From assembly GCA_027002755.1 (NCBI GenBank), contig JALWZI010000106.1, positions 1 through 6,672 on the forward strand: DNA of 6,672 nucleotides, read 5' to 3'. Positions 2,413-6,240 of the stretch are shown piece after piece. A program made the position numbers and the translations under genes. Numbering within the stretch: the first letter of the stretch is position 1; each line of letters begins with the position of its first letter. Source of the DNA: Campylobacteraceae bacterium (GTDB lineage: Bacteria > Campylobacterota > Campylobacteria > Campylobacterales > Sulfurovaceae). A model generated the notes under the pieces. That model had not been told where the DNA came from and made no database searches. It saw only the letters and a program-made list of their open reading frames with translations.

Positions 2413-3687
2413 TCATCCCCGGTAGAGCCAGAGGAGCTCAGCTCCGCTGAGGAGAAAAAGTGTGTAAAAAAGCAAACGATACCGGATCGCCGCCAGGGCC
2501 AAAAGGGCATAGAACTCCAATGTCCATACCGGCAGTATCTTCTCACCCATACCCTCCGCCGGTAGAGACCAGAGCCACATCAAGACTCCGTCCAGTACTC
2601 CTCCCATTCCCAAAAGATGCAGAAGTAGTGCCAGAGGATAGAATGGGATAAAGAGCAGGGAAAGAAACGGCGAAACAAACTGCCAAAGGCTCAGCTGGGG
2701 GAAGAGGGCATGGGTCACCGGCTGCATCAGCCAGAAGATCCCTACAGGTATCACCCCACCCGCCACGAGCCACTTCGGCAACTCTCCGGAATACTTCAAA
2801 AGCAGAAAGATAAAGAAGACCCCTGTCATCGAGAGCCAAAACCCCATAGAAAGAAGCAGTGCAGGCTGGATCACCGCCAGAACTGCCCCGGCAAACGCCA
2901 GAAACGGGAAACTCACCAGTTCGATCCCCAGCAGTACCGCCCCCCAGCCCAGCAACAGCATCACATAGGAGCGCAGCAGTGAGGGCGGCATCCCCGTCAG
3001 CCAGAGGTATCCCGCCAGAAGCAGCAGACTCAGCGTCCCCAGATCGATCAGATCGTAGCGCCAGGGAAAGAGACGCACCTGAAAAAAGCGATAGATCGGC
3101 AGCAAAACCAGAAAGACCCCGCCCCAGAGGATCCCCAGGTGAAAGCCGCTCAGCGCCACCAGGTGGCTGATCCCCAGCTCCGCCACCTTCTGCCGAAGAG
3201 TGGGCGGGAGAGGCTCGGCCAGAAAGATCGCACGGTAGAAGGCCGCCGCCTCCGGATCACTGTGCTGCCGGGTAATGGCGGCGGAGAGGCGTTGCTTCAG
3301 CGTATCGGCATCCTCCCGGACTGCCTTGATCCGGGAAGGAATGTAGGGGCCTTTGAGGTAGTCGACAAAACCGATCCGTTCAGAGGGAAAAAGCTGCAAC
3401 CGGACCCGCTTCCCCTGCAGCGACGCTTTTCGATAGCTGCGGGTATAGAGGAGCAGCCCCTCGTCGCTGCGGACCTTCAGAATCCGATACTCACCGCGGG
3501 CCGAGGATTTGGAGATCGATTTGACCACGTCGCCCCAGGTGTAGAAAAAGGGTTTCGCGACGAACTCCCGGTAACTGCGATACCCCCAGGCCAGATGCAG
3601 CGAAAAAAGCAGCAACACAATCCCCCAGAAGAGCCCCCATTCCCGACGCCCCTCCAGCAACGAAACCTTTTCGATCGCCCGGGACAC
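2413..3687 (-). CDS. comEC: ComEC/Rec2-family competence protein, short form without nuclease domain
   Basis: A polytopic inner-membrane protein of 424 residues that would form the channel taking single-stranded DNA into the cytoplasm during natural transformation. A first membrane segment (about 17-36) is followed by a soluble, beta-rich region (about 45-118) and the competence domain. The diagnostic motif GISHLVALSGFHLG is at 172-185, and PSLLRSYVML (235-244) is another conserved segment. Further hydrophobic segments lie near 186-201, 214-231, 241-257, 260-297, 306-326, 337-359 and 386-420. ComEC of Bacillus or Neisseria type is about 650-800 residues and ends in a metallo-beta-lactamase-like nuclease domain; none is present here, and the frame ends normally in TGA, so this appears to be the natural short form seen in Campylobacterota. 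The start is GTG. It lies 32 bases after dnaB and is probably co-transcribed with it. Confidence 0.92.
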   Translation of the reverse strand: MSRAIEKVSLLEGRREWGLFWGIVLLLFSLHLAWGYRSYREFVAKPFFYTWGDVVKSISKSSARGEYRILKVRSDEGLLLYTRSYRKASLQGKRVRLQLFPSERIGFVDYLKGPYIPSRIKAVREDADTLKQRLSAAITRQHSDPEAAAFYRAIFLAEPLPPTLRQKVAELGISHLVALSGFHLGILWGGVFLVLLPIYRFFQVRLFPWRYDLIDLGTLSLLLLAGYLWLTGMPPSLLRSYVMLLLGWGAVLLGIELVSFPFLAFAGAVLAVIQPALLLSMGFWLSMTGVFFIFLLLKYSGELPKWLVAGGVIPVGIFWLMQPVTHALFPQLSLWQFVSPFLSLLFIPFYPLALLLHLLGMGGVLDGVLMWLWSLPAEGMGEKILPVWTLEFYALLALAAIRYRLLFYTLFLLSGAELLWLYRG

Positions 3688-3719: not shown

Positions 3720-6182
3720 TCAGATCGGGGGCAGCTCGATGTTCCCTTCCCGCATATCGATATTGCCCTCTTCGAAGACCACCTCGAAGCCGCTGCTGCC
3801 TTTATCGGCGTCGACGAAACGGGTGAATCGCTTCTGAAAGATCAGATCCACCGTCCCGGTGGGACCGTTCCGCTGTTTGCCGATGATCAGCTCCGTCTCC
3901 TCCTCCAGCTTGGCCCGGAAGGTGCTCTTGTACTCCTTCCCCTCGGCCTTGGCCTTCATCTCTTTCTCTTTCTCCTTGGCCTCCCGGTAGACATCGTCCC
4001 GGTAGACGAAGAGAATGATATCCGCATCCTGCTCGATAGCCCCCGACTCCCGCAGGTCGCTGAGCATGGGACGTTTGTTCTCCCGTGCTTCCAGCGAACG
4101 GTTGAGCTGGCTCAGGGCCAGGATCGGCATCTGCAGCTCCCGTGCCAGCTGTTTGAGCCCCCGGCTGATCTCACTGATCTCCTGCTGGCGTCCCTCCCGG
4201 CTCCCCTCGCCGCTCATCAGCTGCAGGTAATCGATGATCGCCATGGAGATCTCCGGGTGCTGCATCTTGAGCTTGCGGAGTTTGCTGCGCACATGGTGGA
4301 TCGTGGCGTACCCTCCGTCGTCCACGAAGAGCTTGCGCCGGGAGATATCCTCCACTGCCGCCGAGAGCTGGCTCCACTGTTCATCGGTCAGGTCCCCTAC
4401 CCGCAGGGCCTGGAGCGGGATGGAGGTCTTGGCCGAAAGCATCCGCAGCATCAACTGCTCCGCCGGCATCTCCAGAGAGAAAAAGGCCACCCCTTCTCCC
4501 CGTTCAATGGCTTTAAGGGCCATATTGAGCACCAGGGCAGTGTTGTGGGTCACCGTTCCGTCTTCCAGAAGAAAAAGGTGGTTGCCGTCGAGCACGAATC
4601 CATAGTAATCGTCCACTCTGTCCGGTTCGATTCGGATCCCTGTATGCCGCACATCTCTGGCCGCTTTTCTGGGTCGCGGCTTTTTCCTGGGAATTTTTAC
4701 GGGAATTTCGTCCAAATCGCCGACGATTCTCACCCGATAAACCTCACTCTCATATCCGTGATCGCGGATCGATGCTTTTTTGGCTACCAGCGAAGTACGA
4801 AAGCCCAAGGTATCGGCCAGCAGCTTAATATCCTCGGCCAGTTGCCGGTTCTTTTGTGTGATTTCGATCACAAGGTATTTATCGTCATAATAACCGTCAC
4901 TATCCACCAGACCCGCCAACAGTTCAAGCCGTACCCGACGATCGTTGGAGAGATATAGTTGTGGAATGCGCTTGCATTCCAGCAAGCCCATCTCCCTGAG
5001 CAGTTTTTGGAGTGAAAAACTTTGACGCACGTCGATGTGTTTTCCGTTGGTAACGGCATACATCGGGCATTTGTTTTCATAAGCATAAACCTGAAGACTC
5101 AGACCGATCTTGGCGGCATAGGCTTCGAGAAATTCGACGATCTCTTTGTCTTCCGTGGCGATTCTCACATTGTCGCATCGTCCGTCCCCCAACCAGATAC
5201 CCAGGAAGTAGGGATCAATCGGAACCTCTCTGGCCGGAAAATCAACGGCGACTTTGTAACCTTTGTAGTTGCTTTTGAATTTGTCACTTTTTTGCAGAAA
5301 CTCTTTGACAGAGATATTGAGCACTTCGCCGTGAGTGTGCCCTCCTTCATTGCGGCTTCGTTTCAGTGACAAGATATGGCTTTCGTTCACGCGATAGTCG
5401 ATTCCCTTGTTCTGACGGATCCAATACATCATCTCTCGGCCCCGTGCCAGCGACAGCACCTTTCTGGGGGTCGAATCGTCCCCCATCAAAAGATCGCCGA
5501 CTTTCACCTCCTCGACCTTTTTGAGGGTGCCGTCATACATCATCACCCGGGTCCCTTTGCCCAGGCATTTCCCCATCGCCGGCCGCGCCGCCACGATCAC
5601 CAGATCCCCTTTGCCGAAGCCGCTGGTCTTTTCGTTGAGGTTGCGAAATCCCGTATCGACCCCGATGAGCTTGGAGTTGCCCATGGCTTTGAGCCGTTCA
5701 ATCTCCTGGATCATCGAGACGGTGATCTCCTGGGAGGCCCTGAAATCCTCGCTGACGCTCTCCTGGGTGATCTCGTAGAGCTTCTGCTCCACCCGGTCCA
5801 TCACCTCCATCGCCTCCAGGCTCTCTTCGATGGTGAGCTTCTTGATCTCCGTCGCCAGGGTCACCAGGGAGCGTTTGGCCGCCAGAGCCTTGATCTCCTC
5901 GATGTAGGCCTTGGTATCGGTAATGGGGTTGGCGGAGAGCACCTCCACCATCGCCACCTCGTCGAATTTCCCCACCTTTTCCAGTTCTTTACGCAGAAAC
6001 TCCTCGTCGATAGGCCGATCGGCCATGGAGAGCCGCTCCATCGCCGCGAAAAGGTGCTGGTGAAAAGGGTGGTAGAAATCCTCCGGCTTGAGCCGGGCCG
6101 CCACCTCCTCGAAGATCGCCGGATCGAAGATGATCGCCGAAAGTACGGCACGTTCGATGTTGAGATTGTAGAGATTTTCCAT
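3720..6182 (-). CDS. dnaB: Replicative DNA helicase DnaB, precursor with in-frame intein
   Basis: The hexameric helicase that unwinds DNA at the replication fork. The precursor is 820 residues; removing the intein (206-547) leaves 478, normal for DnaB. The N-terminal domain is about 1-105, followed by a linker and the RecA-like C-terminal domain. Walker A is ARPAMGK (199-205) continued by Thr548 after splicing. Other landmarks are the catalytic Glu in SLEMP (569-573), Walker B IIDYLQL (649-655), SQLNRSLE (691-698), RESGAIEQDADI (711-722), and the arginine-finger hairpin KQRNGPTG (769-776). A highly charged insert at about 732-762 (Lys/Glu-rich) resembles what I recall in Helicobacter DnaB. 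ATG 6182 is preceded by AAGGAG at 8 bases. comEC follows directly; ispG lies upstream but is separated by a terminator. The cell should depend on splicing for replication, because the ATP-binding loop is broken in the precursor. Confidence 0.97.
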   Translation of the reverse strand: MENLYNLNIERAVLSAIIFDPAIFEEVAARLKPEDFYHPFHQHLFAAMERLSMADRPIDEEFLRKELEKVGKFDEVAMVEVLSANPITDTKAYIEEIKALAAKRSLVTLATEIKKLTIEESLEAMEVMDRVEQKLYEITQESVSEDFRASQEITVSMIQEIERLKAMGNSKLIGVDTGFRNLNEKTSGFGKGDLVIVAARPAMGKCLGKGTRVMMYDGTLKKVEEVKVGDLLMGDDSTPRKVLSLARGREMMYWIRQNKGIDYRVNESHILSLKRSRNEGGHTHGEVLNISVKEFLQKSDKFKSNYKGYKVAVDFPAREVPIDPYFLGIWLGDGRCDNVRIATEDKEIVEFLEAYAAKIGLSLQVYAYENKCPMYAVTNGKHIDVRQSFSLQKLLREMGLLECKRIPQLYLSNDRRVRLELLAGLVDSDGYYDDKYLVIEITQKNRQLAEDIKLLADTLGFRTSLVAKKASIRDHGYESEVYRVRIVGDLDEIPVKIPRKKPRPRKAARDVRHTGIRIEPDRVDDYYGFVLDGNHLFLLEDGTVTHNTALVLNMALKAIERGEGVAFFSLEMPAEQLMLRMLSAKTSIPLQALRVGDLTDEQWSQLSAAVEDISRRKLFVDDGGYATIHHVRSKLRKLKMQHPEISMAIIDYLQLMSGEGSREGRQQEISEISRGLKQLARELQMPILALSQLNRSLEARENKRPMLSDLRESGAIEQDADIILFVYRDDVYREAKEKEKEMKAKAEGKEYKSTFRAKLEEETELIIGKQRNGPTGTVDLIFQKRFTRFVDADKGSSGFEVVFEEGNIDMREGNIELPPI
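4542..5567 (-). mobile_element. DnaB P-loop intein with LAGLIDADG homing endonuclease
   Basis: A 342-residue intein (precursor residues 206-547) lying between Lys205 and Thr548 of Walker A. Block A starts at the nucleophile Cys206 and contains GTRVMMYDG. Block B is VNESHIL, with the conserved His269 but Asn266 where Thr is usual. The endonuclease core has LAGLIDADG motif 1 (FLGIWLGDG, 326-334, acidic Asp333), block D (KRIPQLYL, 404-411), motif 2 (LAGLVDSDG, 422-430, acidic Asp429) and block H (about 439-460). Block F has YYGFVLDG (526-533). The end is VTHN (544-547) with penultimate His and terminal Asn, and +1 Thr. All splicing residues and both catalytic Asp are present, so splicing and homing both look possible. 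Sampled 60-base rows of the endonuclease core are 42-43% GC against 62-67% in flanking helicase, suggesting acquisition from elsewhere. Confidence 0.96.
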
Positions 6183-6205: not shown

Positions 6206-6240
6206 GAATGAGGAATGAGGAATGAGGAATGAGGAATTAA
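6206..6240. repeat. Heptamer tandem array GAATGAG x4 plus variant
   Basis: Four exact tandem copies of GAATGAG (6206-6233) are followed by a fifth variant unit, GAATTAA (6234-6240). The array lies about 25 bases upstream of the dnaB start, in the untranslated leader. The copies are identical, which suggests recent expansion by slippage. No coding role is evident except for the weak small ORF described in the findings. Confidence 0.9.

Follow-up and report, generated by a model that had tools for sequence, protein, structure and literature searches.

A predicted class 1, PI-SceI-type intein in the Walker A loop of the replicative helicase DnaB of a Campylobacteraceae bacterium

The replicative helicase gene dnaB within a 6,672-nucleotide stretch of DNA from a Campylobacteraceae bacterium (contig JALWZI010000106.1; the whole stretch is called the window here) carries an in-frame insertion in its ATP-binding loop. 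We are highly confident that this insertion, located at 4542..5567, encodes a PI-SceI-type intein, with class 1 splicing predicted and homing by means of its LAGLIDADG endonuclease likely. This reading draws on sequence and modelling: the insertion is exact, the residues needed for splicing and for the endonuclease are conserved, the predicted fold is PI-SceI-like, close kin have empty alleles, and the history of the intein is unlike that of the helicase. Genomes, loci and families are referred to by G, L and f numbers where they have to be told apart.

The dnaB open reading frame (ORF) runs through 820 residues uninterrupted by stop codons and scores 667 bits (cut-off 596) with the NCBIfam replicative DNA helicase model PRK08506. 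Pfam recognises DnaB, DnaB_C, Hom_end_hint, Hom_end and LAGLIDADG_3 within this single ORF, the last three in the insert (Table 1). The insertion falls on the bond between Lys205 and the threonine of the Walker A motif, with the flanks AARPAMGK and TALVLN. The first-pass annotation had placed a 342-residue intein between these two P-loop residues, and its placement proves exact both in the ORF translation and by comparison with natural empty alleles of the same family. All 42 of these alleles, picked for nearness and spread, read AARP(A/S)MGK|T with nothing between, so that the intein boundaries are firm and involve no guesswork. The further statement that the intein starts with Cys1 and that the Walker A motif of the precursor is interrupted before splicing likewise holds.

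The insert displays the residues of class 1 inteins, with Cys1, the block B histidine, His341-Asn342 and Thr+1. Cys1 is kept in all 89 intact copies counted (inteins of at least 285 aa, leaving out L057, L059, L185 and L069), and the block B histidine, His64 of NESH in the window, is present in 88 of the 89, the general form of the motif being NxSH. The window has Asn in block B where the class 1 TxxH motif, as given in the available passages of PMC6195587, has Thr. As in PI-SceI-type inteins, a Hint fold is combined with a two-motif LAGLIDADG endonuclease: Hom_end_hint scores 74.0 bits (cut-off 32.1) and Hom_end 49.8 bits (cut-off 21.1), the fold predicted for the window intein is PI-SceI-like, and its Asp128 and Asp224 align to Asp218 and Asp326 of PI-SceI. 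The window intein thus appears to be of class 1 type and PI-SceI-like, with an apparently intact LAGLIDADG endonuclease. It differs from PI-SceI, the yeast VMA1 intein, in length (342 aa vs 454 aa), in having Thr at position +1 and in occupying the P-loop of DnaB, whereas PI-SceI probably lies outside such a loop in VMA1. The end of the N-terminal splicing part at residue 112 was placed using the deletions seen in mini-inteins.

Table 1. Coordinates of dnaB, the parts of its intein and the adjacent competence gene in the window
Feature	Position	Strand	Details
dnaB, replicative helicase with in-frame intein	3720..6182	minus	ORF 6182->3720; 820 aa precursor, 478 aa without intein
N-extein of DnaB	5568..6182	minus	residues 1-205, ending AARPAMGK of Walker A
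Intein	4542..5567	minus	342 aa, Cys1 ... His341-Asn342; DnaB residues 206-547
N-terminal splicing (Hint) part	5232..5567	minus	intein residues 1-112; block B NESH (Asn61, His64)
LAGLIDADG homing endonuclease part (predicted)	4656..5231	minus	intein residues 113-304; FLGIWLGDG (Asp128), LAGLVDSDG (Asp224)
C-terminal splicing part	4542..4655	minus	intein residues 305-342; ends VTHN
C-extein of DnaB	3720..4541	minus	begins with Thr+1 (= Walker A Thr); stop codon included
comEC-like competence gene	2413..3687	minus	32 bases downstream of dnaB, same strand

The first-pass annotation had supposed inteins to be rare in Campylobacterota, a belief that, for this family of inteins, did not survive the database search and the tabulation of occupied and empty dnaB genes which it had itself suggested. 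Of the 175 genomes in its own family, 44 contain a match to the intein, as do 50 of 398 in an even sample of the order and 23 of 397 in a phylum sample, all three tallies including a few matches in other genes. In the family, 40 of the 44 genomes have the match in dnaB at the same bond, and the remaining four (G010, G016, G046, G165) have it in other genes. The 40 dnaB cases comprise 36 of full type, some of them clipped by contig ends, and four with a mini-intein only; one genome among the 36, G153, has both forms on two contigs. The inteins of family f11 group with Hydrogenimonas inteins; among its 18 genomes, 7 are occupied, in 8 the dnaB gene lacks the insert (one of these genes being divided between two contigs), and 3 allow no call. 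A contig scan yielded 67 loci, including Campylobacterota, Bacteroidota, Methylococcales, a Spirulina, a Trueperaceae and a Clostridiales metagenome-assembled genome (MAG), with Hydrogenimonas and Sulfurimonas also occupied at the same dnaB bond, and a protein search scored at least 4243 relatives among the 7997 candidates kept.

The insertion point, GK|T of the DnaB Walker A motif, corresponds to the site called site b in the available passages of PMC6195587, and it is shared by inteins of Hydrogenimonas, Sulfurimonas, Sulfurovum, Bacteroidota, Methylococcales, Spirulina and Trueperaceae. HisAsn and Thr+1 are found in those of the other site b inteins that were read, and Cys1 in all except L185. 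Full-length matches are 51-95% identical to the window intein and differ from it chiefly by sequence divergence; some of these DnaB proteins have an added second intein at site a, and some of the inteins are shortened or lack the homing endonuclease (HEN). Judged by sequence, the intein is of an already known kind, with same-site relatives across many bacteria. In the open-licence literature we found nothing pairing 'intein' with Sulfurovum, Sulfurimonas or Campylobacterota, and the accessible parts of some of the intein papers that mention epsilonproteobacteria describe no Campylobacterota intein.

The history of the intein departs from that of its host gene. On the intein tree, the inteins of the window, L002 and L020 join those of Hydrogenimonas (support 99), the 28 other own-family inteins stand apart from this group and adjoin family f7, and a single group of all 31 own-family inteins is rejected by the approximately unbiased test (p-AU 0.000128). 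Furthermore, Bacteroidota inteins are 56-64% identical to that of the window, whereas the exteins are 27-46% identical. Given the patchy presence of the intein, the empty sites in close kin, the conflict between intein and helicase trees and the fact that inteins of different phyla resemble each other more than their host proteins do, horizontal movement is well supported, with homing as the likely route; between Hydrogenimonas and the window genus it may have run in either direction. On the helicase tree, the presence and absence of the intein across the 77 family rows requires 19 changes, a figure that holds for the chosen sample of empty alleles and for quickly built trees with many weak forks. 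The window's own genus is itself mixed, with 3 of 13 genomes occupied (G000, G042, G043), 9 empty and one (G040) outside this reading. Measured over the two exteins, the silent differences per site from the window helicase are 0.21 and 0.29 for the empty L081 and 0.25 and 0.29 for the occupied L002, the empty allele being no more distant than the occupied one. The intein tree was built without L057 and L059 (shorter cuts of L029 and L030), L156, L185 and inteins below 285 aa. The helicase tree covers Campylobacterota rows without viral rows, without the partial genes L064, L067, L072, L073 and L074 and without L057, L059, L156 and L185, and the splicing-domain tree leaves out L174, L179, L189, L191, L192, L200 and L202.

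Five mini-inteins (160-163 aa) of the own family also occupy the P-loop site (L061, L062, L063, L065, L066); they have the linker KLDFSKL in common and are united in a single clade by the splicing-domain tree (support 97). The four that can be placed on the helicase tree occupy separate positions there, and the intein arms and exteins of L062 are nearest, at the DNA level, to L018, which has a full intein; a single endonuclease deletion may have been transferred between lineages. A further short intein, L199 (214 aa), is placed apart from the five, though grouping it with them in a single clade is not rejected (p-AU 0.195). In family f7, two full-type inteins are shortened in frame to 311 aa (L131) and 291 aa (L132), with the endonuclease partly lost. 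For L009 and L012, silent divergence is 0.27 in the endonuclease part and 1.86 in the N-terminal splicing part, as if the endonuclease part had recently been exchanged. DnaB with two inteins occurs in L027, L028, L029, L030, L064, L066 and L067 of the own family and in L166, L179 and L180. The second intein lies at site a with the joint RESG|C...HN|SIEQDAD, being a mini-intein of 139-152 aa in L027, L028 and L066 and long (356-436 aa) in L029, L030, L064, L166 and L179; in L180 it is close to site a with a different joint.

In five single-contig genomes (G065, G569, G396, G408, G374), a search with the empty DnaB matches nothing beyond the two halves of the interrupted gene. Since bacteria cannot do without DnaB and no other dnaB was found in these five relatives, the intein must be excised in their living cells; by analogy, we infer that the window intein is excised in cells too. 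In the mechanism we propose, the DnaB precursor would be unable to use ATP because the Walker A lysine and threonine are separated, and it would remain idle until predicted class 1 splicing, involving Cys1, His341-Asn342 and Thr+1, restores GKT. A RadA P-loop intein that disrupts ATPase function is cited in the available passages of PMC6195587. The endonuclease would cut empty dnaB alleles, with repair copying the intein in, and the intein would be kept mainly as a mobile element whose imprecise loss from the Walker A site would be lethal. A regulatory role is unnecessary for explaining the data.

Several observations weigh against this reading of a splicing and homing intein. Both splicing and DNA cutting are predictions made from the sequence. 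In three near-complete genomes (G401, G465, G603) a second DnaB-like gene is present, which excludes them from the single-dnaB argument. Among the window, L002 and L020, silent divergence (dS) of the intein is similar to that of the exteins, so that within the genus vertical descent with loss explains the data no worse than recent homing does; for L081, a recent loss and a recent gain are equally good readings. In the L009-L010 pair the silent divergence of the intein even exceeds that of the exteins, and no clear rise in identity that would indicate co-conversion was seen in the flanks between occupied alleles. The G+C content at third codon positions (GC3) is 0.59 in the intein vs 0.82, and a recent arrival was considered on this ground and rejected, since the intein is lower in all 16 occupied genes compared. 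In L185, from a Flavobacterium MAG, Pro-Arg replaces the Cys1-Leu2 of other inteins, pointing to an error or a dead intein. Finally, the majority of the genomes are MAGs, and G038, which has the closest empty allele, is 7% contaminated and contains another fragment of dnaB.

The similar silent divergence of intein and exteins among the window, L002 and L020 would also suit a degenerate relic, in which splicing is intact, the endonuclease is dead and the element is inherited only vertically with occasional loss, and decaying copies do exist elsewhere, as L131, L132, L199 and the mini-inteins illustrate. The window copy, however, retains both catalytic aspartates, and the ratio of nonsynonymous to synonymous substitution (dN/dS) in its endonuclease is 0.09-0.11 for the window's two pairs, a value not expected of a long-dead domain. 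Its intein is moreover closer to those of Hydrogenimonas than to own-family inteins beyond its genus, and we consider a relic unlikely. To an assembly artefact stitched from another organism, or a dead insertion or pseudogene, we give practically no credence: the source assembly (1.57 Mb) is in 300 contigs and 75.6% complete, which would leave room for such an error, yet the frame is open throughout with exact GK|C...HN|T joints, an independent MAG (G043, JALVUD010000043) has the same dnaB gene at 97% identity, and single-contig genomes show the same dnaB-intein arrangement.

The first-pass annotation had further likened the intein to DnaBi1 of Mycobacterium smegmatis and suggested a redox or metal switch, in which oxidation or zinc at Cys1 would restrain splicing and thereby gate DnaB, so that its use would maintain the intein. 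The shared insertion site is the part of this analogy that stands. The available passages of PMC6195587 describe DnaBi1 as a class 3 intein that lacks a HEN, has Ser at position +1, splices via the internal Cys118 and has the Cys48-Cys118 disulphide as its redox pair, whereas the window intein is of class 1 type with a HEN and +1 Thr, has Cys1 and lacks any cysteine after residue 198. Zinc is described as binding DnaBi1 at Cys118. DnaBi1 was not among 13 PDB sequence matches (E up to 10), a result that alone says nothing on descent. The proposed switch gains some plausibility from the full conservation of Cys1, from the reported inhibition of DnaBi1, at the same site, by zinc and oxidants, and from the five HEN-less mini-inteins of the own family, which have the splicing residues and persist without an endonuclease of their own. 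The cysteines of the window intein are residues 1, 131, 167 and 198, with Cys1 alone before residue 131. Cys131 occurs in 4, Cys167 in 63 and Cys198 in 2 of the 89 copies counted, all three lie within the endonuclease part, and the splicing domain has no second conserved cysteine in these copies. Because Cys131 and Cys198 are scarce and the common Cys167 lies in the endonuclease part, a switch of the DnaBi1 type is unavailable. In addition, DnaBi2, the class 1 neighbour of DnaBi1, gave no comparable redox response according to the same passages of PMC6195587, and most family genomes are without the intein, contrary to what a needed function would demand. The redox switch was rejected as the leading reading in view of the class 3 chemistry of DnaBi1, the cysteine pattern, the behaviour of DnaBi2 and the patchy presence, and we regard it as very improbable; zinc or an oxidant might act directly on Cys1, as with any Cys1 intein.

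Relatives of the intein also occur in viruses. The viral contig scan used an intein alignment with motifs inside the endonuclease only, and the figures refer to the best 80 of at least 558 relatives. All 80 end in HisAsn and 78 start with Cys, with Thr at position +1 in 48 and Ser in 32. The insertion lies at a Lys|Ser/Thr bond in 72 of the 80, of which 51 fit [AG]x4GK[ST] or [AG]x5K[ST] and 21 are non-fitting GK|S/T, for instance PTGAGK|T. Another six interrupt the P-loop at a different point (e.g., GIG|SGKS), and L314, with the bond one residue further on, and L305 do not fit. Pfam applied to 20 of the 80 host proteins found five ATPase kinds in 15 of them, namely DnaB_C, AAA, ResIII/Helicase_C or SNF2 (superfamily 2, SF2), RecD2-type AAA_19 (superfamily 1, SF1) and Terminase_3, and no match naming an ATPase in the other five (L250, L263, L274, L285, L305). 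Comparison by blastp sorts the host proteins of 90 rows into 16 groups, or 13 at a looser threshold, and one group (L305) lacks a P-loop. Distant kinship nevertheless links some of the groups, as L253 and L287 both match DnaB_C (L253 below the cut-off) and L244 and L246 both match AAA. On the intein tree the host groups largely cluster, with 19 changes vs a minimum of 15 and weak basal support, and the DnaB-type inteins form a separate group (20 of 21 rows, support 86). Seven full-length phage relatives, hand-picked from 258 phage records at a coverage of at least 80%, likewise interrupt P-loops, at K|T in five cases and at G|(S/C)GK(T/S) in two. The helicase intein of Klebsiella phage JD001 is 45% and that of Salmonella phage Ent3 42% identical to the window's, both also at K|T. 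Together with mycobacteriophage TerL1-a, described in the accessible parts of PMC5050341, these phage helicase inteins share the P-loop site with the window intein and differ from it in host protein.

These data leave us evenly divided over whether one PI-SceI-like lineage has specialised on Walker A, moving among unrelated ATPase genes of bacteria and phages. On this specialist reading, the hosts would be DnaB, SF2 and SF1 helicases, AAA proteins and terminases, and the Lys|Ser/Thr peptide rather than a DNA word would be the constant element. A fixed DNA target across hosts was considered and is not evident, given that the GK and T/S codons of 60 distinct viral contexts show a mixture of bases at their wobble positions; the fixed codon bases are meaningless because these contexts were selected for K|S/T. 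A control with relatives of the site a intein (alignment A2) gave only 8 loci in viral contigs, two alike at the P-loop joint HN|CGKT, three alike at EHK|TASR, where the lysine is not part of a GK, and the others without a P-loop at the joint, and is too small to carry weight. Among distant mycobacteriophage relatives, L323 lies in a terminase and L322 outside the P-loop (LKS|T), so that the specialism is not universal there. P-loop insertion as such is already known, being termed 'classic' for the Lys/Thr position in the parts of PMC5050341 available and also appearing in those of PMC5874633, and for this reason, and because of the small control, we hold the specialist reading below a verdict. 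The open-licence passages and search results consulted contain no statement of a P-loop specialism of one lineage.

Elsewhere in the window, DNA uptake by way of the comEC-like gene adjoining dnaB would presumably ease the spread of the intein. A perfect 7-base tandem repeat (GAATGAG, 4.6 copies, 6206-6237) lies in the gap that separates dnaB from its upstream neighbour, immediately ahead of the dnaB start; similar repeats occupy this place in L133 and L134 and, in more degenerate form, in L079. After two adjacent Hsp20 small heat shock genes (392-838 and 850-1281) come a rhodanese-like gene (1325-1717) and a SYLF-domain gene ending at 2406. A repeat at 125-235, palindromic by eye, has 19 matching places in its own genome, itself included, and overlaps a likely spurious small ORF (79-255, minus). 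Rfam gave no match in the window at its gathering threshold.

The window thus appears to hold a well-bounded, apparently intact class 1 intein at the P-loop of the replicative helicase, to which the redox precedent is not transferable. Contrary to prior belief, P-loop DnaB inteins are common in parts of Campylobacterota. Within one bacterial family, a single dnaB site can be compared at many distances in its full, HEN-less, double and empty forms, and this allele set makes the homing cycle of gain, endonuclease loss and precise loss directly testable. If true, a single lineage specialised on P-loops would help to explain why inteins are frequent in ATP-binding loops.
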